Shown: positions 6,960 to 58,912 of the stretch, in pieces
Numbering within the stretch: position 1 is the first letter of the stretch
Layout of the letters: every line of letters starts with the position of its first letter
Translations under genes and position numbers: made by a program
NCBI GenBank assembly: GCA_025201345.1
Contig: JAIXMG010000005.1
Location: 558,001 to 622,000, forward strand
Length of the DNA: 64,000 nucleotides
DNA from: Thamnidium elegans
Taxonomy: Eukaryota > Mucoromycota > Mucoromycetes > Mucorales > Mucoraceae
Direction of reading: 5' to 3'
Notes under the pieces: generated by a model
Seen by the model: the letters and a program-made list of their open reading frames with translations, nothing else
Told to the model about the DNA's origin: nothing
Databases searched by the model: none

Positions 6960-9393
6960 TTATTCATGATGGGTATTCAAGGAGGCGGGTGCAAGCTTCG
7001 ACTTCTTGGTCGTCACGACCAAGAAGCTCTCCCGCTCCGGTTCCTCGACTTTGTTGGCTTTTCTCTTACGAGAAGCAGTAGCGGTGCTGGAGGTGGGGGA
7101 GGAAAGAGTTGAGGAGAGAGTTCGAGCCGGTTTGGGTCTCTCTTCGGTCTTCTCACTTTTCCTCTTGTGAGAAGGGGTAGCTGGTACAAGAGTAACTTCA
7201 GGGTAATCGCAAGTCTAAAAAAAAAAGATGGGGTTAGTTTTTAATTTTAAAAAAAGTTTTTTTTTTTACCTTGTTTACATTGAAGTCAAAGAATGTTCCC
7301 CAACTTCTGGCATCAAATGATGCAGGCGAGTAGTAGACCAAGTCATAGTCCTCCATGCTTTCGTTTGTCTCCTCGAGTGGTATGCATGATTTGCAAGAAA
7401 GACTACAATTCTTACAAATAAAAACATCTTCTGGTAGACCAGGACGGACAGAAGCAGCTGGACAAATAGGGCGTTTGAAAATAGAAGTCAAACTTACCCC
7501 TTTAGCGGCAAGATTTGCAGCGGTAAAGTTTTTCTTACAATGGAGACACTTGAAAGTATTGAGTCCGTTACCTTTTGCCTTACGGTAAGACTCTATGCGA
7601 CTACAAAGAGTGGCCAACGAAGGACTTTCACTACGAAAAATAGGTCAGTGAATCTTTAAGAAACAAAAAATGAAAGAAAAAAAACATATATTACCTGTTC
7701 AAGCAATCTGATCCGTCAATAACAACTTCTTCATTAAAAATAGAGTTAACAAGTTCTACGAACCCTTTATAGAGCTCCAACGACTCTGTTAACTTTCTGT
7801 AACCTTGGCGCATCACCATACCATTAACATGTCGACAGCTTCTTCCAATAGAATAACAATACATGCAGATGTCATAGCCATCACAATCCTCACAATGGTA
7901 GTATCGATGAAAGATATCCGTATGGCAAAAGTCACATTTGATGATACATACTTCTCCTTCTTTATCCGTAGTAATATTTGGGTCTTCTGGTAACCAATCT
8001 GGTTCAATAATTTCTTTTAAAAAGATGTTTAAAAGAATCTTGGAGTCTTTAATAAATGATTCGCGGCCATAGCGGAGAGCAGGCAACTGATCAAGTTCTT
8101 TAGTTGGGTTATTTTTTATGGTTAAAAGTTGATTATACCATTCGTTAATAGTAAAGCTTACTATTGCTTTACACTTGTAAACCTCTGGTCGGTTGATAAT
8201 ACGGTAGAGTGGTAATTGATCTTCAAATGCGTATTCCAAAGTTTGAGCCGTGATACGGTTCCAGGCGAGTTTAATTGAGACGCCTACGTTACGTACTTGA
8301 TGATATGCTCTGCTAGGAACAATAACTAAGTCTCCGGGCTTTTGAATGATAACTTGAACAGGGAAATCACTCTTGTTTACTTTAAAAGCACTTAACCAAG
8401 CACGATCACTCTCCAAAAAGGAGCTCTTGGTTACGGATTTGCCTTGATCTAATCGCTTGTCAGGCTTGTATCTGTTAATCTTTTTTCTTTCAGTTTTAGA
8501 TAATTCAAGTACAGAAGCGAGTTTCTCTCTGTCCTTGTTAACAACGATTAACCATTCTGCGTAAGCACCAGGAGAGCCCATCGTCATGATATTATGACCC
8601 ATAGTACCACATAAATCTCGGTGAATAGGAGTTCCAGTTTGATCTTGACCCAAATAGCACATAAAGTTCTTGGCTTGAAAGAGTTGTGGTAATAAAGAAA
8701 ATAAATCATTATTTCCAAGTGGTAATAAATACTCCGGAATCACATCTTGAATGGCTTGAGTATATTCTTGTGGACACTCAATATCCTTCGCATACATTTT
8801 ATCAATCTTAGTACCTAATATTTTATATTCTCTTGCTTTCTTAATTTTATTATTATTGTCCTTGGGAGTAGCAAGCTTTGATTCGATTGTAGTAGGATTG
8901 ATGCAAGTAGAAATAGTAGCCTGTGTAGGTACTGCGGACGTTGCTTCGTGAGAATTAATATTATTGGATTTGGAGATACTTTTTACGTGTTGATCACGTG
9001 AATCCAATTTGTAGTTGCGTTGTAAAGTTTGGATGTAATCACCTAACAATACTTCTCTTTTGGCACTTTTGTTTACAACCAAATTTATCACTGTTGTTGT
9101 TTTTTTAACCAAAAAAAATAAAATAAAAAAAAATGTATATAAATATATATTTATTAATACTTACACTCTTCTCCGTGTTCGCGTTTAAGCTTTTCGAGAG
9201 AGAAGGCTTGTGTATTCCAGTTAATATGTTTATTCATATTTGACACAACAAGTGGTTCGTTATTGTCAATACAGTGTTCTTTGATAACTGAAAATAATTT
9301 TTCTGGAGTGTAATTCAGGTAATCGATTCTTTTGGCAGCCATGTGACCAGAAGGTAATTCCTGTTCGTTTTTAGCAATTAAGATCTTTGGCAT
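6960..9393 (-). CDS. JmjC-domain protein with Cys clusters, 4 exons, 746 aa
   Basis: Exons 9393-9165, 9090-7695, 7630-7270 and 7214-6960 join in frame. It is a candidate Fe(II)/2-oxoglutarate oxygenase of the JmjC class (histone demethylase-like). The iron ligands appear as HRD (H233, D235) and the His of AYHQV (H340), followed by IKLAWN. The N-terminus (LVVSNMNKHINWNTQAFSLE) resembles the start of KDM3-type JmjC folds. After the JmjC domain, residues about 455-500 hold a Cys/His cluster with CDFC, CEDC and CMYC pairs (ZZ/PHD-like). Residues about 565-630 hold a second set (CLHC, CKNC, CKSC) resembling the 4CXXC-R1 type. The last exon is Ser/Thr/Lys-rich with several KRK/KKSK nuclear signals. 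The substrate cannot be told from sequence. The catalytic triad looks intact. Confidence 0.85.
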
Positions 9394-10449: not shown

Positions 10450-11113
10450 TTGTTAATTATAATTTTGCAAAAATATACTTATGGTCTCCTCTTCTCTATT
10501 ATCACATATACGAAACAATCTACATCTGAAGATTATGCAAATTGTAATGATTTGGATATTATTTATTCCATAAATGTACGACAAGCATATGTACACAAAT
10601 CGTGTATACTCTGAGCAAGACAAGCGAAAAGAAAATTATACCTTACAAGGTCTAGTTTTCGGAACAGTTGGTTTTGGCCATATTCATTTTAGCCGGACCG
10701 GCCTTTGTCAGCTCCATCGAACATGTCGGAATAACGCGGTCCGCACTGGATGAATTTTGTTTTATTTTACTATAATTAACTTTGTGATTGACAATAATGT
10801 CAGGTTATAATTTGTAGCTATCAGTCATTTTCGTGTTCCTTGTGTTTGTGGTCTGATTTCTAAGTTATTGTATTAGTAATTTTATTATAAGGTTTTATTA
10901 TATAATCTATCATATGATATTCTCAAGTTCTGTTGTAGTTTATTCATATGTTTCTATTATTTTGTATTACTTCAATTGAATATAAAAAGGTCTCCTTTTT
11001 ATATCTTTAATAAAAAAACTTCCTTTTACTATTTACTTTATTTTATTACTTTCTCTCTATTTTATTGTATTATAAAACAAGTCCATTTCAAGCTTGATTC
11101 CTATTGGCTGAGT
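10450..11113. other. Intergenic upstream of tRNA-Arg
   Basis: No gene recognised. The block 10640-10750 is less AT-rich but has no long ORF. An ATTGG (inverted CCAAT) sits at 11103-11107 just before the paired CACGTG element. Confidence 0.4.
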
Positions 11114-11130
11114 CACGTGAATGTCACGTG
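11114..11130 (+). promoter_or_regulatory. Paired CACGTG upstream element of tRNA-Arg
   Basis: CACGTG at 11114-11119 and CACGTG at 11125-11130 are separated by AATGT, giving 11 bp repeat spacing (about one helical turn). The pair ends 59 bp before the mature tRNA. The same arrangement is found before the other two tRNA genes at 61 bp, and in the LTR of the retrotransposon. A function in Pol III expression is inference. Confidence 0.6.
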
Positions 11131-11189
11131 TGGTGCTCTGGCTAAGCATGCAATAGATTTACTAAAAGCAGAATGACAATAATATGTGA

Positions 11190-11262
11190 GGGGCTATGGC
11201 CCAATGGATAAGGCGTCTGACTACGAATCAGGAGATTCCAGGTTCGACCCCTGGTAGCCTCA
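11190..11262 (+). tRNA. tRNA-Arg(ACG)
   Basis: A 73-nt cloverleaf. The acceptor GGGGCTA pairs with TAGCCTC (one G-U). The anticodon loop CTACGAA gives anticodon ACG, and the T-arm CCAGG-TTCGACC-CCTGG is perfect. There is no intron. Box A lies in TGGCCCAATGG and box B is GGTTCGACCCC. A T6 tract soon after the 3' end would serve as Pol III terminator. Confidence 0.97.
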
Positions 11263-11327
11263 CAACTTCTTTTTTGTTTTCGTCAATTCAAGAAGTGCAT
11301 CTAGACGTTGTATAAACATTTTGGCAC

Positions 11328-18060: not shown

Positions 18061-18670
18061 CCGAGCTATTAAAATAGTGAAGATTCAAAATAAAATAAAA
18101 ACAAAAAGATATTAAAAAGTAATCGGCCGCAAAAGAAAGATGATCGTTTTATTAATTAAATAAAAAAGGTATAGGTTTATATAGCTTTTTTATAGCTGAG
18201 TTTAAGTATAATCCTTGTAATGTGCTGTATCATTATAAGTGCTACAGTTTCCTTATAAAACTTCAAGTCGTGCTTATCTAACCTACTCTTCGATCAAGAT
18301 ATGTAATTATGGTCAATCCTTTAATCATTACTCAGTTAACAGCTATTACAGGACGCTGTCGGTAAGGCTTAGTTAAAGTAAATATAAATTAAACATAAAG
18401 GGATAAAGACGCGTGAAATAATCATGTAAATATATATGAGAATATATATTTGTATATGATTGATCACATTATCGATCGCTATTGTCCTTATTTTTTTTAT
18501 CCAATTGCTGGTTAAATAGATATGCCGATGAGTTTTATATTTATAAATTATATAAATTACAACGCTAAGAAACATGAATACATTGTTTGTACATCAACTT
18601 CCTGTTTAAAAAGCATGATTTTCTGACATTTATGCTAAATTAGAATATGATGCTCCAATCATAGTTACTC
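18061..18670. other. Intergenic, AT-rich
   Basis: No gene recognised. CCAAT at 18655-18659 lies 11 bp before the first CACGTG of the tRNA-Asn upstream element. Confidence 0.4.
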
Positions 18671-18698
18671 CACGTGCTAGACGCGTGAATATCACGTG
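18671..18698 (+). promoter_or_regulatory. Displaced triple CACGTG-type upstream element of tRNA-Asn
   Basis: CACGTG (18671), CGCGTG (18682) and CACGTG (18693) sit at exact 11-bp intervals. If the retrotransposon and one target-site copy are removed, the last half-element lies 61 bp before tRNA-Asn, the same distance as at tRNA-Gly. The insertion has moved it about 6.5 kb away. Confidence 0.6.
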
Positions 18699-18754
18699 AG
18701 TTTATCAACATTTAATATTTTTAAAATATATAGTATATTAAAATTTAAAAAATA

Positions 18755-19113
18755 TGTTACGATTACGGTACTTGTTTGTAGAATGGTTAGTTGTTTGAAA
18801 CTGATTGTTCCTTTGAATACGCTGCTCCGAGACTTGTTAAACAGAGTATTTAAGTATTAGTAGTGATAAGTTGTACAATAGATATCCAATTCCTTCTATT
18901 ATATTTCCAATTCAATTCGTTCTTCAAAACTCAGAATATCAAGTTATACAAATTAAAATTACTAAAGAAAAGCTTGTTTTATTAAAATTATACTTCTAAA
19001 AACTATATCTAAAATTATTGTAGTGTATGAAGTCTCCAAAACGTGATAATCACGTGTTGTAACATTTCAGTCTCAGCTTATGATCTTCATTCGATTTTCT
19101 ATACCACGTATCA
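18755..19113 (-). repeat. 3' LTR
   Basis: 359 bp, no difference seen from 24873-25231. It carries AACGTG-ATAAT-CACGTG (19040-19056), the same 11-bp-spaced pair found upstream of the tRNAs. Its first bases, TGA in element orientation, form the integrase stop codon. Confidence 0.95.
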
Positions 19114-20553
19114 TGCACCCACCTCAGAATTAAGATCATTCCTTTCAGCATTAGCGGTCCTCCTTTCGATCCAGGATTTAAATAACTCTTCATTTATCTT
19201 CTTTTGTACATCTGGTATCATAGAATTTTTACAATGATAAGGTATCAAATGGTCACTATTTACTGATCCTTCTAATCTTCTTGCATTTGGTCCTACTAAA
19301 TGATACGTTCCAGATTCATTCACTTTTTTAACAGTCATGGGCCCGATCCATCTATCAGCGAATTTGTTCTCAGGATACTGGTCTCTCATAAGCACTTGTT
19401 CTCCTACTTGATATTGTTTCTTAAGTTGAACAGTCAAATTGTATCTTTCTCGTTGTTTATTTTTCTTTTCGTTAGAAGCATCTCGAGCAATCTTCCTTAC
19501 TTCTTCTAATTGTGAAATCACGTATTCAACGCGTTTGTTTACTTCTTCTTCATATTCACCTTCGACATAATCTTCTCTAGGACATGTCCATAGGCTTGGC
19601 GTTCTCATTTCTTGGCCATATAACAAGTAGCTTGGAGTAAAACCAGTTGATTCACTTTTCATGCTTCTCATAGCCATAAGTGCACTCGGTAATGATAAAT
19701 CCCAATTCTCTACATTATCTTGTGTATCTTTCGTTATTTTTGATATTATTTGCACTAACGTTTGATTTGTTCTTTCTACTAGACCGTTTGTTTGGGGCCT
19801 GAAGGCTGAAGTTGTTACATGTCTACAGTTCATTTGTTTCAGAAACGATTTAAAGTATCTTGAAGTAAAGTTAGACCCTCTATCACTTAGCATATACTTA
19901 GGTACACCATGATGTTGCAATATCTCGGTCACTAAGAAATCTACAGTAGTTTCTTCATCGACCCTTTTAACTGCCTTTGCTATGGGCCACCTAGTTAGAT
20001 AATCAACCGCTACTAAAATCATACGATTTCCTTGCTTTGATGGAATAACCGGTCCGACAGCATCAATACCTATCATATAAAAAGGAACGCTAGGAGTCAT
20101 GATTGGTTTACTAGGTACAGTTCTTCTTGCTGGTTTCTTTTTACGGAATTGACATATGTCACAATTTTTAACGACTTCTTTAACTGTATCATATAACTTA
20201 TTAGGAGAATAATATTTTGATTTAACTTTATACCAAGTGTTATTAATTCCCATGTGTCCTTCACTATGTACGAACTTGATTATTTCTTCTATATTTCCTT
20301 CGTGCAATACTTCTAAGGGTTCATCTTCAGGGTTAGCAGGTCTTGTATATAGTATTCCTTTGAACAACTTGTATTTCTTGGACATTTCGATTAATTTGGA
20401 TTTGAATTTTTCGGTTGAATTTAACGGATAAGTCTTATGGATCTTTAGTTGTGTGATAGCTACGTATGTTGGATAATCCATGTCGTTATATTTTCTTCTT
20501 GTTGTATAAATTGTGCTTGTGTTGATCGATATTAATATTATTGTTGTCTGCAT
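19111..20553 (-). CDS. Retrotransposon integrase ORF (480 aa)
   Basis: Contains an H2C2 zinc-binding N-terminal region (H..H then CDICQFRKKKPARR), the DDE core with GIDAVGPVIPSKQGNRMI, LSDRGSNFTSRYFKSFL and FRPQTNGLVERTNQTL, and a C-terminal GPY/F-like module (FADRWIGPMTVKKVNESGTY). No chromodomain follows. The last codons run to the exact LTR edge, where TGA of the LTR terminus ends translation, so the plus-strand primer tract (GAGGTGGGTG region) is inside coding sequence. The frame is separate from the RT/RNase H ORF: a TAA, a 54-A run and stops in all frames lie between. The listed ATG may not be the true start; the conserved part begins near YPTYVAITQLKI. Confidence 0.9.
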   Translation of the reverse strand: MQTTIILISINTSTIYTTRRKYNDMDYPTYVAITQLKIHKTYPLNSTEKFKSKLIEMSKKYKLFKGILYTRPANPEDEPLEVLHEGNIEEIIKFVHSEGHMGINNTWYKVKSKYYSPNKLYDTVKEVVKNCDICQFRKKKPARRTVPSKPIMTPSVPFYMIGIDAVGPVIPSKQGNRMILVAVDYLTRWPIAKAVKRVDEETTVDFLVTEILQHHGVPKYMLSDRGSNFTSRYFKSFLKQMNCRHVTTSAFRPQTNGLVERTNQTLVQIISKITKDTQDNVENWDLSLPSALMAMRSMKSESTGFTPSYLLYGQEMRTPSLWTCPREDYVEGEYEEEVNKRVEYVISQLEEVRKIARDASNEKKNKQRERYNLTVQLKKQYQVGEQVLMRDQYPENKFADRWIGPMTVKKVNESGTYHLVGPNARRLEGSVNSDHLIPYHCKNSMIPDVQKKINEELFKSWIERRTANAERNDLNSEVGA

Positions 20554-20690
20554 GTATTGTTGGAATTAGTTGTTGTCGATGTTTTATGCCATCTCTGGCA
20601 GGTCTTTTTCGATGTTTAACGTCATCTCGGACCTTTCTAAATAATTGTGAGTCTATTTTATATATATTTTTTTTTTGTTTTTATTCTATT

Positions 20691-20693
<3 letters not shown>

Positions 20694-20747
<54 letters not shown>
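20694..20747. repeat. Homopolymer of 54 T (A on the element strand)
   Basis: An uninterrupted T54 lies immediately after the RT/RNase H stop codon in element orientation. It is the longest homopolymer in the window. Its exact length is likely unreliable in any assembly. Confidence 0.9.
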
Positions 20748-20750
<3 letters not shown>

Positions 20751-23700
20751 CTAATCTACTGAAGGCATCAGCGGGGTTGTCTTTACCACGACGATAGACG
20801 ACTCTATAAGACATTCCCATAAGACAAGCTTTCCATCTTTCGACCTTTGGTGAAGGTTTCGGGTTATTCAGAATATATTCGAGTGCAGCATGATCTGTTC
20901 GTATAATAAATTCTTCTTTAGACGCTAAGTAATACCTGAAACGATTAACTGCCCAGACGATTGCTAAAGCTTCCAAATGTGTAACAGTGTAATTCAAGTT
21001 TGCATGATTAATCGACTTAGAAGCATAACTAATCACTGTTTCTTCTTCATCAGTTCCTGTGGGTGATTGAGAAAGTATGGCACCTAGTCCTTTGTATGAG
21101 GCATCTGTAGTAATTATCTTCACATATTCACGGATCGGGAAGGTTTGTACTGGGGGAGACATCAATGAACTTATCAAATAGTTGAAGGCATCTTGTTGTT
21201 TATCTGTCCATTCGAAACTGTTTGTCTTCTTGAGTAACTTAGTTAGAGGTTCGGCTCTACATGCATAATCCATGATAAATCTTCTGAAATATCCAGTTGC
21301 ACCTAATAGCGATCTTACATCATCCTTGTTCGTAGGTTCCTTAAGTTTCACAATCTTCTTTAAATTACCTTCGGCTGGTTGAATTCCTTTCTCACCCACC
21401 TCATGGCCGAGATAGACCACCTTGTTCCTACCAAACTGGCATTTCTCCTTACGGATCCTTAAATTGTTAGCTTTACATACCTCAAAAATTTTCTGTAAGT
21501 GATTAATGTGTGATTCTTCATCTTTAGAAAACACTAAAATATCATCGATAAATATATAAACGAATACACCTATAAAGTCATTCAACAGTGTGCTCATAGC
21601 ACGTTGATAGCAAGCGGGAGCTCCAGTAAGGCCAAACGGCATAACTTTAAAAATGAAAGTACCAAATTTCGTGACAAACCCGGTCTTTTCTATTGAGTCT
21701 TCAGCCATTGCAATCTGCCAAAATCCTGTTGCTGCATCTAAAGTACTAAAATATTTAGCACCTGCTAACGCATTGAGCACTTCTTCGATATGCGGTAAGG
21801 GATATCCATCTTTAATTGTTTTAGCGTTCAAGGCAGAATAATTCACCACTAGTCGAAGTTTCTTGCTATCTTTTTTTGGTACAAAGAAGATCGGAGCACT
21901 CCATTTCCCATCGCTAGGCTCGATAATTTTCAAATCAAGTAATGTCTTCAATTCTTCTTTCAAACTGTCTTCTTCATCATAATTCAATCGATATGGCTTT
22001 GATCGAGTTGGTATTTCATCAGTTGTCCTAATATGATGTTTTATATTCTTAACCACTCCAATTTCATTGTATTCAACGAAACAGTCTCTGTAAGATTCTA
22101 AAAGATTATTTAAAAAATTAGGGGTCCCTTCACTTTCGTCTTCATTAAAAACTTGACGGGCTTCATTATCTTCGATAAATGAATCATGGGATATCGTGTC
22201 TTCTTGATATGTTGAGAGACTCACTATTTTGTTAATATTAATTTCTTTGTTTTTATTTATACTTAAATCTTCTTCGTTTGATTCTCCTAGATGACTATCA
22301 TCCCGTCTGACACTGACTTGAAAGATTGGAACATCATTTGAAATGAAATCTTTTTCATCATCTATGCATTCTACTTCTACATAATCTTTACCTCCGTTGG
22401 TGGGGACCATTACGATTTTACCCTTTTTTATTAACCTGATATCATGGTTTTCAATCCATGATCTACCTAAAATGCAAACCTCTTTCCCTGTTTCAGAAGG
22501 ATCAATACAGAAATGTTCTATTCTTCGTTTACCACCAATTCGTACATCAACGTCAGTAACTACTTGACAAGTCACGCTCTTATTGCTCGAGAACCCAGAT
22601 AATACCATTCTATCTTCATTATTGACTTTGATATTCAGAATTCTTGCTAGTCGTATACTCATTACGGAAACAGCTGCGCCAGAGTCTAGAATAGCTTCGA
22701 CCAATCGATTGTGGATATTTACGAAAACTCTAACGGGCCTTGCGTTTCTCATCTTGATAGAATCGTAAGGATAATTTATTATAGTCGATTCACCGTCATC
22801 ACTCTCTTCATAAAAACTTTCGGAAGAATTATCGTATTCGCTATCATCGCTACTAGAGTTACAATTCGTTTCACTTGACTCGCCATTACTTTCTTCATCG
22901 GACTGGAAGTGCTTGACTGAGGATTCGTGTGGGTTACTTCTGTTATAGTTTCTTCTTAACAATTCTTCTTCATCGAGTAATCCGTTACTTCGTAAGGCAC
23001 CGATCATTACAGGATTTGTAGATATACTTATATTTTGGTAAATTTTATTTTTATTTTTACCTGAAGGTTTTCGCCTATGCAGGTACATAATTCCTTCTTT
23101 GACTTCTCTTGCAGCGTTTTTATTTAAGGCTAAGAACTCTGCTACAGACATAGTTACTTGGGTATTCCTTAGTTTTTCCCAGGTATCCTGTACGTTGACA
23201 TGAACTTCTTTCCTTGGTCTACGACTTAGTTTCCTTCGTACGGGTTTAATCACACCTTCGGTGAGGGTGTTCATACTCGGTTCATTTAATGACATTACAT
23301 TGTGCGGCGTATAGTTTACAAATTGAGAATTGGGACGAATAGAATTGCTTCCTTCAGGGTGGTCGATTTCCATGTTACTTAGATTCACGTTTTCTTTTTC
23401 CTTACCTTTTCTTCTTGTTGTCGTTCTTCCTTCTTCAATACTTCCTGTTCCTTTTCTTTTTACAGCGTTAATATCAATACTTGAGAGATGATTTCCTTCC
23501 TGTATTGAGTTGTTAGTAACTTGGACTAATTGAATTGAGTTAGTATGTGCGTTATTCTCTAGAAGTTCTTTATATGGCGGTTTTATATTATTATTTTTTA
23601 TATTTTGTGTGGGTGGAGTATTATTTTCATTATATGTATTTATTTTATTATTATTGATATGGACAGCAGTATCTCCACCGATTACTGTTGTCCCATGTCT
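20746..23700 (-). CDS. Retrotransposon pol: protease, reverse transcriptase, RNase H
   Basis: Read in the -1 frame relative to gag from the slippery site at 23700; 984 codons follow to TAA at 20748-20746. After a variable linker, the aspartic protease shows ILDSGAAVSVMS. RT shows KKDSKKLRLVVNYSALN, TLDAATGFWQIAM, FGTFIFKVMPFGLTGAP and the catalytic FIDDILVFSKD (an IDD variant of YxDD). RNase H shows ITTDASYKGLGAILSQ and a C-terminal DNPADAFSR. An ATG exists at about 23371, but the frame is open across the gag end, so fusion by frameshifting is the simplest reading. All RT motifs look intact. Confidence 0.93.
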
Positions 23701-23706
23701 TTTCCC
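23661..23706 (-). promoter_or_regulatory. -1 ribosomal frameshift cassette at the gag/pol junction
   Basis: On the element strand gag reads CAG GGA AAA GAC, giving the heptamer G-GGA-AAA (23706-23700), a canonical X-XXY-YYZ slippery site. A 6-nt spacer (GACATG) follows, then an 11-bp stem: GGACAACAGTA (23693-23683) with TACTGCTGTCC (23671-23661), 10 of 11 paired, around an 11-nt loop. Slipping back one base yields AGA CAT GGG ACA and enters the pol frame. The gag stop codon begins inside the 5' arm. Confidence 0.8.
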
Positions 23707-24656
23707 TGTTGTTGGTCATTATATAGGTTACCACTATTGTCTTGGTAATTCCTATTCGCAGGTGGTTCAGGACAGAATCTACTAGCATGTCCATCTTTAC
23801 CGCAATTCCAACAAACGAATCTTTTGTCACTCCCATATGGTGGTCTATTGAACGTTTGTCTCTGGTTATGCTGTTGGGGTTGAATTTGTTGCTGTTGCAG
23901 ATTCATCTTCAACTGTTCTTGCTGTTGTACGATGTTGATGCTCAATTGATTCATTGAATTAATTAATTTTTCGAGTGTATCTTGGGTAGATACAGAGCTA
24001 CTGTCATTCGCTGTCGTATTACTAATTGTAAGTTTGCTATCTACTTCATCTATAAAACTTATTTTCTTATCATTTTTATTATTATTATTCTTGTTATACT
24101 TCATTAATAATGTCTCTAAGCTGGCAGCTTCTTCAATCACATCTTCATAGGTTCTCAAGTTCATTCGTTTCTTCTCTAACTCGAATCCAATATCAGAATT
24201 CACTCCGGATATAAACAACGAAATCTTCATTTCTTCATCTTTTACACCAGCAGCTTTGAACAACACATTTAGTTCACTAGTGAAGTGTTCTACCGTCTTT
24301 CCATATTCTTGTTCAATGCTTCTCAATTTCCTCCAAGTTTCACCAACGGTAGGTTGAATAAATTTACTCTTGAATTTACTCAAGAATTCCTCCCAAGTTG
24401 TAATTGTTTCACCAACAGTGTCCCACCAATCTTCAGCACGGTCTGTGAATGAGTTAGTGATAGCCGTCAAGAACATTTCGTGATTAAAATTTGTTGTGAA
24501 AAATCCTTTGTACGACTTAACAGTCTTCAACCATATTTCAGCCTTGTTTACATCTCTACTTCCAGAATAGTTAGGGATCTTATTCATCAAATTCATATAA
24601 TCAGCGGGGCTTGGTCCGCGCTGATGGGTGGCGTTTTCGTTTTTAATATCAGTCAT
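23682..24656 (-). CDS. Retrotransposon gag (324 aa)
   Basis: The capsid-like region carries the retrotransposon-gag motif (EDWWDTVGETITTWEEFLSKF, then FIQP..GETWRKLRSIEQ). It is followed by a Gln/Asn-rich linker (about aa 215-275) and one CCHC knuckle, CWNCGKDGHASRFC (about aa 280-293). The order matches Ty3/gypsy gag, which packages element RNA in virus-like particles. The stop TAA follows the slippery site by 5 codons. The ATG at 24656 is about 215 nt after the 5' LTR. Confidence 0.92.
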   Translation of the reverse strand: MTDIKNENATHQRGPSPADYMNLMNKIPNYSGSRDVNKAEIWLKTVKSYKGFFTTNFNHEMFLTAITNSFTDRAEDWWDTVGETITTWEEFLSKFKSKFIQPTVGETWRKLRSIEQEYGKTVEHFTSELNVLFKAAGVKDEEMKISLFISGVNSDIGFELEKKRMNLRTYEDVIEEAASLETLLMKYNKNNNNKNDKKISFIDEVDSKLTISNTTANDSSSVSTQDTLEKLINSMNQLSINIVQQQEQLKMNLQQQQIQPQQHNQRQTFNRPPYGSDKRFVCWNCGKDGHASRFCPEPPANRNYQDNSGNLYNDQQQGKDMGQQ

Positions 24657-24853
24657 ATCGTAATTGTAATTCGATTAAAAAAATTTTATAAAAATTTCTT
24701 GCTAGGATGTTGTCAAACTCTAATTTAATTTTTGACAGGTCGATTCTCCAATATATCGTTTAAAATAAAAGATCTTATATTATTTGTTTGTTTCTTAATT
24801 ATTGTTTTCGATTGGTGTTTAGTTATAAATGGTACGGTAATTGATTAAAATAA

Positions 24854-24871
24854 GTCTCGGCGAGACCTCCA
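24854..24871 (-). other. Primer-binding site of the retrotransposon
   Basis: One base after the 5' LTR, the element strand reads TGGAGGTCTCGCCGAGAC. It starts with TGG, as expected for pairing to a tRNA 3' CCA. The primer tRNA would end in CGAGACC-T-CCA; I cannot name it. The site contains a short palindrome (GTCTC-GCC-GAGAC). Confidence 0.6.
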
Positions 24872-24872
24872 A

Positions 24873-25231
24873 TGTTACGATTACGGTACTTGTTTGTAGA
24901 ATGGTTAGTTGTTTGAAACTGATTGTTCCTTTGAATACGCTGCTCCGAGACTTGTTAAACAGAGTATTTAAGTATTAGTAGTGATAAGTTGTACAATAGA
25001 TATCCAATTCCTTCTATTATATTTCCAATTCAATTCGTTCTTCAAAACTCAGAATATCAAGTTATACAAATTAAAATTACTAAAGAAAAGCTTGTTTTAT
25101 TAAAATTATACTTCTAAAAACTATATCTAAAATTATTGTAGTGTATGAAGTCTCCAAAACGTGATAATCACGTGTTGTAACATTTCAGTCTCAGCTTATG
25201 ATCTTCATTCGATTTTCTATACCACGTATCA
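24873..25231 (-). repeat. 5' LTR
   Basis: 359 bp, no difference seen from the left LTR. The U3 edge lies 9 bp from tRNA-Asn, so element transcription and tRNA transcription diverge from this junction. Confidence 0.95.
25158..25174 (+). promoter_or_regulatory. LTR-borne paired CACGTG element upstream of tRNA-Asn
   Basis: AACGTG (25158) and CACGTG (25169) are 11 bp apart with ATAAT between, inside the 5' LTR. The pair ends 66 bp before the mature tRNA, near the 59-61 bp seen at uninterrupted tRNA loci. It may serve the LTR promoter, the tRNA or both (inference). Confidence 0.6.
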
Positions 25232-25240
25232 AATATATCA

Positions 25241-25314
25241 GCTTCCGTGGCGCAATTGGCTAGCGCGTCTGACTGTTAATCAGGAGGTTGGTGGTTCAAG
25301 CCCACCCGGGAGCG
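25241..25314 (+). tRNA. tRNA-Asn(GTT)
   Basis: A 74-nt cloverleaf. The acceptor GCTTCCG pairs with CGGGAGC (one T-G). The anticodon loop CTGTTAA gives GTT. Box A is within TGGCGCAATTGG and box B is GGTTCAAGCCC. There is no intron. TTTCTTTTT follows as terminator. The upstream flank beyond 9 bp is now retrotransposon LTR. Confidence 0.97.
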
Positions 25315-43899: not shown

Positions 43900-43970
43900 T
43901 GCGCGGTCGGGGAATCGAACCCCGGCCCTTCGCGTGGCAGGCGAAGATTATACCACTTAACCAACCGCGC
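43900..43970 (-). tRNA. tRNA-Gly(GCC)
   Basis: A 71-nt cloverleaf on the minus strand. The acceptor GCGCGGT pairs with ACCGCGC, discriminator A. The anticodon stem TTCGC/GCGAA encloses CTGCCAC, giving GCC. Box A is TGGTTAAGTGG and box B is GGTTCGATTCC. No intron. TTTCTTTT follows. Confidence 0.97.
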
Positions 43971-44031: not shown

Positions 44032-44048
44032 CACGTGGATATCACGTT
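44032..44048 (-). promoter_or_regulatory. Paired CACGTG-type upstream element of tRNA-Gly
   Basis: In tRNA orientation: AACGTG, ATATC, CACGTG, with 11 bp repeat spacing. The pair ends 61 bp before the mature tRNA. A CCAAT box (plus-strand ATTGG at 44060-44064) lies a further 11 bp upstream. Confidence 0.6.
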
Positions 44049-47000
44049 GAACAACTCGTATTGGCTAGAATAATACTCCACTGTTTTATTTTAAAAAAGC
44101 TTTTACTAGTCAATACATTTTACAAACCACTACTGTAATTTATCAGTTTAATTAGACTAAAACATATTACATATTTCATGGACAATAAAGCAGACAAAAG
44201 CCTTATGATTAAAGCTGTTTGATTGGCTCAGTGGCTATAATTATGTAAAAATAAGCTTTTTTTTTTCGTTCCTGAATTTTATCCCTTGACGGAGTATTAA
44301 ACTCGAACATAACTAATGACAGCGAGTTAAGAGAAGAATATAAAAGAGCAAATCATTTATTTTTAACTTTCTTTTGACATACCTCGTAAATAGCGCCTAT
44401 TCAAGATATAGTGTCTGTTTTTCGAATCAAGTGTCGCAGTAAATAGTATACTGATAAGCTTAATTTCTTTAGCTTTATTTCATGATGTAGAGGCCGCTTT
44501 TACTTTCTGCCTTTTTTTTTTTTTTTTTCGTAAATAGCAAATTATTTATGGAGTAGAATATATAATATTAAAAAGTTTGTATTGGGTTACTACTATGAAA
44601 CTAATTTATTTACTTAAGGAAGTAGGATTATATATAAATACCCAGGCAAGTAAAAATAAGGTTTTTTTTTTAAAGGAACAAGACGATAGGTGAAAAAACG
44701 AAGTAAAAAAAAAAAAGCAAACTTTTAACAAACGCCCCAGGTGGTTAGATTGTTGACTACGATATGGAGGTAACCATACATTTCTTGTCCTCACACGTCT
44801 ATTATCATCACAAATTTCAGCCGATGATACGATAGTAATATGGAATATCGTATTTTTCCAGATATTACAATTTTATTTACGTAAAAAAAAAACACAAACA
44901 GTAAATTGCCGTGACTATTGTATCATATGTTAAAAAGCCATTTGATATGTATAAATGCTAATCAGATACTATGGGCTTTCGTTTTGATAACTGAAAAAAA
45001 AAAGCCTTTGTAGATCCTGTTGTAAAAAAAAAAAAAAAAAAATCAAAAAGAAAAAATACTTAAAATAGTTTATTGTTCTCATGACGAGGCGTATGGCAAA
45101 ATAAAAAGTGTAGCTAAGCGCACGCAGTTATTATTTTTAGATCTTTGTAAAGAAGTTCTTTTTTGCTGTGATTGCTCTATATGTCCAAATATTTATATTG
45201 GTTCCATGGTTCGGAAAAAAGGCGTACGTTATTTATAAATCCAAAAAAATCCAAAGAGTAGCTAGTTAGTATATGTTAGGAATTGTTTGAATCTTCTTGT
45301 CCATCCGTAAGTTTATCTATCTACTACGAATTATGCAAATAATGTTTGAATTAATGTGCCAGCACTATAGTTCGAGAACAATTGTATGTGTCGGTTACGC
45401 GCATCATTTTTTTTTTAAAAAAAAGGCGGACCCAATTTATACGTTCAGATAGAAGAAAAATAATAGTTGAATGAATAAAAAGAGGCGTTCCCTATATTAT
45501 ATTAATTTGATTAGACCATAAATATACTGCTTTTTTTTTTTTTTTAAAAAAAAAAGAAACTTGTTATACACTTGTATTACGTAGAGAGAGAAAAGTTAAT
45601 GATGATGCATTACTATGTTTTCTTCTTTCTTGACGTGACGGCAACTCAGTATTATGTCCATCAAAATGAGTTCTTTTAATGAAGTACGTTTATTATTCAC
45701 TTTGCATTATAGAACAGTTCTTTTATGTCGGATCCATCATCATATTTATTATTTTAATTTGTTATATTTTATCCCCATTCACAATACCTTTATCAGGCTT
45801 TAGAGCACAGATAAAAAAACATACGTATTGATATAAGAAATTTATACTGGTGGTTATATATATATATATTACCTCTTCATAAGTAGTAATACTCGTTCTA
45901 CTAGCTCAATGCATCGGCCGTCCTTACTATACAACCCCCAAAAATAAAATAAAATAATAATAACGATAGACTCGTACAGACTAATTACAAATATCATATT
46001 TATTAATTAAGCTTAAATATAGCCGTACTAAAGTGTAAGCTATTATTTTTTATATAATATGCGTCATAGTGGTTGGTCTACTGCAAATAGGTTTCACATA
46101 TATATTAGGATAGGTATACTATATGATATAAATAGGACGATCTTTGATTGTTTAGTTTTGTTTTTCATCGTTGTAATTGATCTTCACAGCTTAAAATATT
46201 ACAGGCACACAAGAAAAAGAAACAAGTACACAAGCACATATGTGAACGTCTTCTAACAACCATCGCTAGAGGCAGCTCTACCACCTGTGTCTTTTTTGTG
46301 CAAACAACACTCATACATGCTTTTGGGTAATAGTCGAAAGCATTTTACACCCGTCGAAGAAGTGCCAGAAAAGTTAGAATCTGCATCCAGGAAGAGCACT
46401 GGAATGCTTTCTATACCCAAAAGCATTAACCAGGAAGTATTCTAAAAAAAAAAAAAAAGACATCGAATGCGGATAAAATTATTCTTTGAAATGATATGTC
46501 ACATTTTTTTTTTGGATCAACTGTGTGGATAGACCTAGAATTTTTAGCTGTGGATTGGCACAGAACTCTCAGTACAGTTTTTTTTTTTTGGCATGTGCAT
46601 ATAATGTGTATCGTAGATCTTTATTGTTAAAAAGTTCCTTTTGAAACGTACACGCTATTAAAAAACATAAAGGTAATACCCGGTACAGATTTTTTTAAGC
46701 ACGTATGGGTATTCTATTTTTACAGCAAAAAAGCCTTTTTTTCTTTACTGAGCGAGAAAAACTTAAATAGACATATATCCTTTTAAAAAAAAAATCCACA
46801 AGTAAAAAAAAAACCAAGCCAATATACAGTATATATATAAAAAAAAAAACCAGCCCTTTCTTTTTTCTATCGTAATTACGCCACACCATAATAATTCAAA
46901 GAAGGCTGTAACGATATATACCAAAAAATATATTTTGAGATGTTTGTTATGAATTGCGTATATAGTTTGGCTGTTGCGCTATTTTTGGAAGCCAACTATA

Positions 47001-57788: not shown

Positions 57789-58912
57789 ATGAGCGAAATT
57801 GCGTTAGCCAGTACACCTAATTACGACTATACAAATGGATCAATGATGATTAATCCTGGTCTTGTTCAAAAGACTACGAATACTCAAAATGAATCAACAT
57901 CTAATTTTACTGAACAACAATACTCAACTTATCCAGGTAAATTTTTTTTTTTCGCATTAACAAAAATCAATATGATTGGTTGAAGCGGGTTTAAGGAGTA
58001 AAAAGTATACTAAATATAACTCCCCTTTTTTATATAGCTTATGCCTTTCAGCCAATGCCAATGGAATATCCCCCTGTACCAAACTATCAAATGTCTCGGT
58101 TACCTTTTTTTAAGCAACCCAACAGTCCTGAATCAACTACGTCTTCACCTACACCTTCTCCACCACCTCCTAGCTCCAAAAATCGATTTAATAATCCTAC
58201 TACTGCTCGTGTTAAAGAGATGATCACTAGAGCTAATTCTGTACCTATGGAATTTTATCATACTGAGTTTTTAGAGTATTCTAAAGAAACTTATGAAAAG
58301 AAGATGGAGTCAAAGCGCAATAAGCGCAAGAGAACTGGCGAGGAAGAACAAGTCGAAAAGAAACAAAAAGTTGTGATTGAAGAAAGAGAAGATACTGATG
58401 ATGAATTTGACGATGAAAAATTAGTTGATGAGTAAGTTACTTACTGCTACTAAAATAATTTTTTTTTATTTTTTATTTTTTATATATTAATTTTTACTTA
58501 TAAATAGTAGTGCCGAGATCCGTCGTCAAATTCATATTCAGTCAGAACAAAAGAGACGTGCTCAAATTAAAGATGGATTCGATGAATTAAGAAAGCATTT
58601 ACCTGGTTGTAATAACAAGAAAATGAGTAAAGCTGCTCTTTTAACTAGAAGTAAGTTGGAACTATGTGCGTGTAACAAACAAACAAACTAATTTTTTTTT
58701 TAATTAAAAGCTGTTCAACAATTACAACATTTAAAAGGTATGCAAAATGAATTGTTATCTGAAGTCGAAAGATTATTACAAGAGAACGAAGCATTGAAAA
58801 AGTAAGAATTCGAATTTTATCTTTTTACTGTCTATTATACTTATTTCCTTTTATTAGGTTCCAACATGGAGTTCTTCAACGTCAAGCCATGGAAAAAATG
58901 TATACCTTTTAA
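57789..58912 (+). CDS. bHLH-leucine zipper transcription factor, 5 exons, 276 aa
   Basis: Exons 57789-57936, 58038-58431, 58508-58650, 58711-58801 and 58858-58912, phase-consistent. The Pro/Ser-rich N-terminal half (SSPTPSPPPPSSKNRF) is followed by a basic/acidic linker (KRNKRKR, EEREDTDDEFDD). The bHLH is at about aa 186-240: RRQIHIQSEQKRRAQIKDGF, then ELRKHLPG, KMSKAALLTRTVQQLQHLKG, and a zipper to the C-terminus. Basic-region contacts H190-x3-E194-x3-R198 match the class B pattern (H5, E9, R13) that selects CACGTG, as in Max and Mlx. The loop and helix 2 look Mlx/Max-like. A homo- or heterodimer partner is expected. CACGTG pairs occur upstream of the tRNAs in this window; regulation of those is only a hypothesis. 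Confidence 0.88.

Follow-up and report, generated by a model that had tools for sequence, protein, structure and literature searches.

The window, the 64-kb stretch of Thamnidium DNA analyzed here (33% GC, from a genome of 34.1 Mb in 64 contigs), contains three tRNA genes, all identified by both ARAGORN and Rfam. These are tRNA-Arg (acg) at 11190–11263 and tRNA-Asn (gtt) at 25241–25314 on the plus strand, and tRNA-Gly (gcc) at 43900–43970 on the minus strand. The earlier note had described two CACGTG-type half-sites spaced 11 bp apart upstream of each gene, at 59 bp (Arg), 61 bp (Asn, with an inserted element subtracted) and 61 bp (Gly) from the tRNA, with a CCAAT or ATTGG box 6, 11 and 11 bp further out. 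The coordinates of the pairs, the distances and the gaps were all reproduced on the window sequence, the box at tRNA-Arg having the opposite orientation. Overlooked at that time was that two of the three genes (Arg and Asn) now have a pair carried by the LTR of a retrotransposon.

The tRNA-Gly module is the only one of the three whose upstream sequence matches none of the LTR families described below. Its pair (44032–44048, minus strand) reads CACGTG and AACGTG on the minus strand and lies 61 bp upstream of the gene, and a CCAAT box in native orientation (44060–44064, minus strand) is located 11 bp outside the pair. At tRNA-Arg, the CACGTG-N5-CACGTG pair (11114–11130, plus strand; half-sites 11114–11119 and 11125–11130) ends 59 bp before the gene, and the ATTGG box (11103–11107, minus strand), reversed relative to the native orientation, is 6 bp further out. 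Both lie inside a solo LTR of family B (10798–11178, plus strand; 381 bp, TGTCAGG...TGACA), which is flanked by 4-bp target-site copies ATAA, identified by eye, at 10794–10797 on the left and 11179–11182 on the right. The flank upstream of this solo LTR (~10500–10793), which ends in GATTGACA, looks on inspection by eye like a degraded A/H-type LTR and would then be a second, stacked LTR at tRNA-Arg; blastn returned no match for it at E 1e-5.

The native module of tRNA-Asn (18655–18698, plus strand) has the form CCAAT-N11-CACGTG-N5-CGCGTG-N5-CACGTG, with half-sites at 18671–18676 (CACGTG), 18682–18687 (CGCGTG) and 18693–18698 (CACGTG). It is found 6.5 kb from the gene because a Ty3/gypsy-type LTR retrotransposon (18755–25231, minus strand), which ends 9 bp upstream of tRNA-Asn, separates the two. 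When the inserted element and one 4-bp target-site copy are subtracted, the module lies 61 bp from the gene. The element has two identical LTRs of 359 bp, one distal to the gene (18755–19113, with its own pair at 19040–19056) and one adjoining it (24873–25231), with termini TGTTACG...TATCA in plus-strand reading and an AATA target-site duplication (18751–18754 and 25232–25235). Three frames were found on the minus strand: gag (23682–24674; PF03732), a protease-like/reverse transcriptase/RNase H frame (20746–23715; PF00078, PF17917) and integrase (19111–20565; PF00665, PF17921). The protease profile PF13650 scored slightly above the cut-off and PF13975 slightly below it. The resulting order of PF03732, PF13650/PF00078/PF17917 and PF00665 is the gene order of Ty3/gypsy elements. 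The adjoining LTR carries the pair AACGTG-N5-CACGTG (25158–25174, plus strand), 57 bp from the LTR edge and 66 bp from tRNA-Asn.

In the window, CACGTG occurs 12 times against 4.35 expected, and CACGTG-N5-[CA]ACGTG or its mirror occurs three times, against none in each of 20 dinucleotide shuffles. A further near-pair (8984–9000, 11/12 letters) lies away from any tRNA gene. A bHLH domain is encoded at 58521–58649 (plus strand; RRQIHIQSEQKRRAQIKDGFDELRKHLP), one of the 42 hits to this domain in the genome. A conserved neighboring protein of the HAD family has its nearest named match in Pilaira anomala (81%), with 76% to Mucor hiemalis, and so puts the genome close to these two genera.

Position and spacing of the module at tRNA genes

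The CACGTG pairs of the window are not chance occurrences. Across the genome, the exact CACGTG-N5-CACGTG pattern was found 93 times and the reversed pattern once; with all spacers from 0 to 30, the counts were 111 and 12. In a hand tally of the first 50 of the 93 sites, 37 were located 50–70 bp upstream of a tRNA gene. The other 13 comprised eight copies in LTR family G, one in family C, two native arrays displaced by LTRs (L015 and L090), one site at a contig end and one unexplained site. This last site (L087, C13:642709) has the full array, CCAAT-N14 with three E-boxes, yet nothing 50–70 bp away is convincing as a tRNA gene; its target has perhaps been lost or displaced.

Next to these motif-based counts stands a motif-blind Rfam sample of 60 distinct tRNA genes. 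It was derived from 63 scored places out of 1882 first-look candidates, with three identical places, copies of one divergent Met/Arg pair, merged. As only scored places entered, the sample represents high-scoring tRNAs of some isoacceptors. A pair matching at least 10 of 12 letters ended 51–72 bp upstream of 40 of these 60 genes. The motif is therefore neither absent from most other tRNA genes nor randomly placed at them. Among the 20 genes that had no such pair, 13 were immediately preceded by an LTR from one of the families A, E and H, four had a 9/12 version in place and three had neither, so that seven of the 60 had neither a full pair nor a matched LTR. The divergent tRNA-Met/tRNA-Arg pair is present in three near-identical copies (L047, L049 and L052; C13:445494, C53:14741 and C61:8291), two of them on small contigs, and has degenerate E-boxes (9/12).

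In a 63-gene set, composed of the 60 genes plus window tRNA-Asn, window tRNA-Gly and the tRNA-Glu beside L072 (all three with a pair and hence subtracted for the 40/60 count), a spacer of 5 bp was found at 43 genes, and each of fifteen other spacers at 0–7 genes. Shuffles that keep single-base content only gave 0.05 genes with spacer 5, compared to the 43 observed.

The internal structure of the module was analyzed in 56 modules, which were selected for having a pair and some of which entered through the pair search. A third half-site 11 bp further outward was present in 12 of them, with no clear step beyond, and the E-box flanks preferred TCACGTGA. In 28 of the 56, a CCAAT box was present no more than 80 bp outward of the pair, compared to 5.8 in shuffles that likewise keep single-base content only. 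The gap between CCAAT and a half-site peaked at 11 bp (10 cases) and 14 bp (12 cases), and the half-sites continued at 22 and 33 bp or at 25 and 36 bp; ATTGG-to-half-site gaps had no peak in this set. Native modules vary in CCAAT gap and half-site number. A fixed CCAAT orientation and a fixed spacing to the E-box, here 11 or 14 bp, are the sequence hallmarks of an NF-Y/CBC–bHLH composite site.

Specificity of the module among Pol III genes

No pair was found in the 300 bp upstream of one 5S, four of five U6, two SRP and one RNase P gene, where the best score was 6/12. On the basis of these eight genes, we reject a general Pol III upstream element, and the CCAAT/E-box element looks restricted to tRNA genes. 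Thus, the proposal of an external, sequence-specific element made in the earlier note is supported by the pair at 40 of 60 sampled genes and by its fixed position, spacing and specificity, but it seems not to extend to Pol III genes generally; the suggested role as an activator or insulator is putative.

A PSE-TATA-like element (ACCACAACTT...TTTTYGGTCGCCTTTATAA) is common to four of the five U6 genes and the two SRP RNA genes, which have no E-boxes. This element, found upstream of L103–L107 and at C3:351324, C5:335684, C7:801011, C8:425855, C12:765330 and C13:532325, is by its sequence a putative second kind of external Pol III promoter. A type 3 (PSE/TATA) promoter was also considered for the tRNA module and rejected, as the module sequence differs. 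Among the pattern places examined, the U6/SRP element occurred only at other genes and not at tRNA genes. A variant of it, TTTTTGGTCGCCTATATAA, precedes an unannotated small-RNA gene family (L109, L110, L111 and ~10 further places, for example C1:1728413 and C45:1250442). The genes of this family are ~120–160 nt long and have complementary ends (GAGGAAG...CTTCCTC) and a T-run. For the three copies read, Rfam gave no match up to E=0.5 (L109 and L111) or none at the gathering score (L110). L112 (C6:769830–770250, minus strand) is a further candidate RNA gene that follows a PSE-TATA-like element, and Rfam returned nothing for it beyond one chance-level match.

The position and specificity of the module also bear on an insulating role in chromosome organization. 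A bHLH protein acting as a general regulatory factor would ward off nucleosomes or heterochromatin and part Pol III genes from their Pol II neighbors, and its binding would not itself raise tRNA transcription. A site 50–70 bp outside the gene suits a boundary as well as an activator, and a single array can be common to two neighboring divergent tRNA genes (L009 and L072). However, neither an exact CCAAT spacing (11 or 14 bp) nor a tightly limited distance to the tRNA is an obvious requirement of a boundary, and the other Pol III genes that were read have no pair. We therefore regard an insulator as unlikely.

LTR families and displaced arrays at tRNA genes

Seven LTR references (families A, B, C, E, G, H and Asn-type) were drawn from tRNA-adjacent copies. 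All 24 adjacent copies had the same orientation; seven of these are the references themselves, so that 17 of 17 comparisons agree. Two reversed matches were located further out from the tRNA (L025 and L065). The LTR ended 7–12 bp before the tRNA in 22 of the 24 copies, the ends of the other two not being clear, which is the fixed short distance of tRNA-targeting LTR retrotransposons. Target-site duplications, computed or identified by eye, were 4 bp long (ATAA, AATA, AAAA and GAAC). Stacked LTRs, with the inner one beside the tRNA, were B over A (L012), B over G (L023) and A over A over C (L065).

Four families (B, C, G and Asn-type) carry a pair 43–57 bp from their tRNA-side end: at 48 bp in B (four copies), 47 bp in G (three), 43–45 bp in C (three readable copies) and 57 bp in the Asn-type. 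The LTR copies thereby place the pair 53–68 bp from the tRNA. No pair was present in families A, E and H. Pair-less LTRs lay beside 13 of the 60 sampled tRNA genes, compared to pair-bearing LTRs beside 8. C and the Asn-type are partly alike in sequence, which leaves three carriers between which blastn shows no relationship. Among ten genome matches to the Asn-type LTR, five were directly before tRNA genes (Asn, Asp twice, Glu and Leu; neighbors named by eye), three were followed by another LTR and two by internal sequence. Family B gave 13 matches, nine of them longer than 200 bp; six of these nine were directly before a tRNA gene (Arg, Ala, Gly, Lys, Tyr and Thr), two were followed by an A-type LTR and one by other sequence. 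The family C LTR has tandem E-boxes with CCAAT at N11 on its tRNA-facing end. In five copies of it, CCAAT and E-box columns were kept at 14 of 16 positions, compared to 208 of 346 elsewhere (one-sided p=0.02), and the letters between CCAAT and E-box diverged while the spacing was constant. This conservation could also arise if the motif serves the promoter of the LTR itself.

The uniform orientation and the motif itself could reflect targeting, with bHLH proteins bound to both the LTR and the tRNA module bridging the two and steering integration. Such a tether would agree with the presence of the motif in some LTRs and most targets and with the single orientation beside tRNA genes (24 of 24, including the seven reference copies). 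Yet families A, E and H reach the same end point with no motif, and at L012 a B LTR struck again where the upstream A LTR has no motif, and we consider a tether very improbable.

Native arrays that now lie beyond an LTR were found at three loci, with pre-insertion distances of 61 bp (Asn), 55 bp (L015) and 52 bp (L090). The displaced array of L015, CCAAT-N14 with three half-sites, has been replaced by a G LTR with a pair at 57 bp. At L090, the duplication is GAAC and the inserted LTR has no pair. The far flank was read for four E-box-bearing insertions: two had displaced native arrays (Asn and L015), L153, which sits behind a G element, had only a lone CACGTC half-site, and L154 had none. LTR-borne pairs were themselves displaced by a subsequent LTR at L023, L065 and L067. 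No displaced array was present in the stretches read at L012, L044, L046, L048, L051, L053 and L056, among them further genes behind E-box-less LTRs; the insert may exceed these stretches.

These arrays also bear on the question of whether the pair is a transposon relic, that is, a regulatory site of the LTR promoter that is found at tRNA genes only through LTR landing. At 8 of the 40 motif-blind genes the pair lies inside a recognized LTR, at least 9 of the 50 tallied sites belong to LTR copies that adjoin no tRNA gene, and older LTRs may escape recognition, as L003, L018 and L079 have a common decayed upstream sequence. On the other hand, 32 of the 40 pairs match none of the seven LTR families, the native modules differ in CCAAT gap and in the number of half-sites, and native arrays preceded three LTR insertions. 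Retention of the 11-bp spacer and of a fixed distance would also not be expected of relics, and this origin appears improbable.

A putative external promoter module and its LTR-borne copies

The explanation that we favor, with a probability of roughly 0.7, is that the element is an external tRNA promoter module, a binding site for a bHLH and CCAAT-complex activator that some tRNA-targeting LTRs mimic. At least two bHLH dimers, Cbf1-like or USF/MITF-like, would occupy CACGTG sites spaced by one turn of the helix (11 bp), in many cases with an NF-Y/HAP-type CCAAT-binding complex 11 or 14 bp further outward. The genome has candidates for the first partner: of the 42 bHLH domain hits, 41 were translated, and among these we take one to be Cbf1-like (L143) and several to be USF/MITF-like, as judged by eye from their signatures. 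In yeast, TFIIIB occupies approximately −10 to −50. The predicted bHLH/CCAAT complex would be positioned just outside this place, where it may aid the assembly of TFIIIC and TFIIIB or keep the start nucleosome-free. LTR retrotransposons that target tRNA starts would land between the module and the gene. As the pair-bearing families carry the module 43–57 bp from the tRNA-side end, their insertion supplies a replacement at nearly the old distance, which may keep the gene active.

Textbooks present tRNA genes as the standard example of internal promoters. Upstream sequences, TATA-like or composite motifs, nevertheless modulate them in yeast, silkworm, fission yeast and plants, and in yeast conserved patterns occur around −53, −30 and −13 (PMC11346459). 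The Thamnidium module is likewise an upstream sequence on an internal-promoter gene. The motifs in the cited part of that work are short, weak and TFIIIB-related, whereas the Thamnidium module consists of repeated CACGTG with CCAAT at fixed spacing, and its pair is present at 40 of 60 genes (PMC11346459). E-boxes bound by Myc/Max are present at mammalian 5S rDNA, in the repeat spacer, and near 7SL genes (PMC4482074), and thus also tie bHLH dimers, predicted in Thamnidium, to Pol III transcription. The sections of that source cited here state no fixed distance for these sites, in contrast to Thamnidium, where the distance to tRNA genes is fixed and the 5S and SRP genes that were read have no such sites (PMC4482074). 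USF2-NFYA composite sites of human Pol II promoters combine CCAAT and CACGTG at a fixed spacing of 9 bp (PMC5223348). The Thamnidium arrangement resembles these and, by the account given there, differs in having two spacings (11 or 14 bp), tandem E-boxes and tRNA genes as its location (PMC5223348). Among the open-licence papers listed, no title or abstract opening describes E-boxes or CCAAT boxes as a module of tRNA genes.

The LTRs have known counterparts as well. Tj1 of Schizosaccharomyces japonicus is an LTR retrotransposon that also inserts upstream of tRNA genes (at 5–11 bp) and in one orientation (PMC4600332). It has the same direction as the tRNA gene, whereas the Asn element is opposite in direction to its gene (PMC4600332). 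The cited sections on Tj1 describe no replacement promoter module; in Thamnidium, LTRs of families B, C, G and Asn-type carry the pair (PMC4600332). According to the same source, insertion between upstream promoter elements and the start is very likely to disrupt the promoter, and S. japonicus tRNA genes apparently have no upstream TATA box for Tj1 to disrupt (PMC4600332). LTR-borne modules would be an answer to this problem. Like Ty3 of Saccharomyces cerevisiae, the Asn element is a Ty3/gypsy element at the start of a Pol III gene; Ty3 inserts in both orientations, unlike the uniformly oriented adjacent copies in Thamnidium (PMC5911963). Insertion of Ty1 and Ty3 at yeast tRNA genes is neutral or mildly stimulatory, with no such replacement in the cited part of that report, and this neutrality counts against the need for an LTR-borne replacement (PMC5911963). 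The E-box-less LTRs at 13 of the 60 sampled genes imply, in addition, that the module is not strictly required or that those genes are weakened and pay a price.

We advance only tentatively, at slightly below even odds, the further idea that several LTR families acquired a host tRNA-gene enhancer, so that insertion repairs the promoter by itself, integration is harmless and LTRs renew tRNA promoters across the genome. If so, an insertion severs the tRNA gene from its external activator and at the same time brings a new one to a nearly equal distance. The module can then also be reinstalled where an E-box-less LTR stood, as at L012, where the A LTR was later struck by a B LTR. The copy of the module carried by an LTR may thus allow a harmless landing beside tRNA genes. 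More broadly, a strict upstream CCAAT/E-box grammar at most sampled tRNA genes would link tRNA output to the kind of bHLH factor known from Pol II genes. Natural retrotransposon insertions have already set the module apart from the gene, in some cases leaving a replacement and in others none. Existing genes therefore allow one to measure what the module contributes and what integration targeted to tRNA genes costs.
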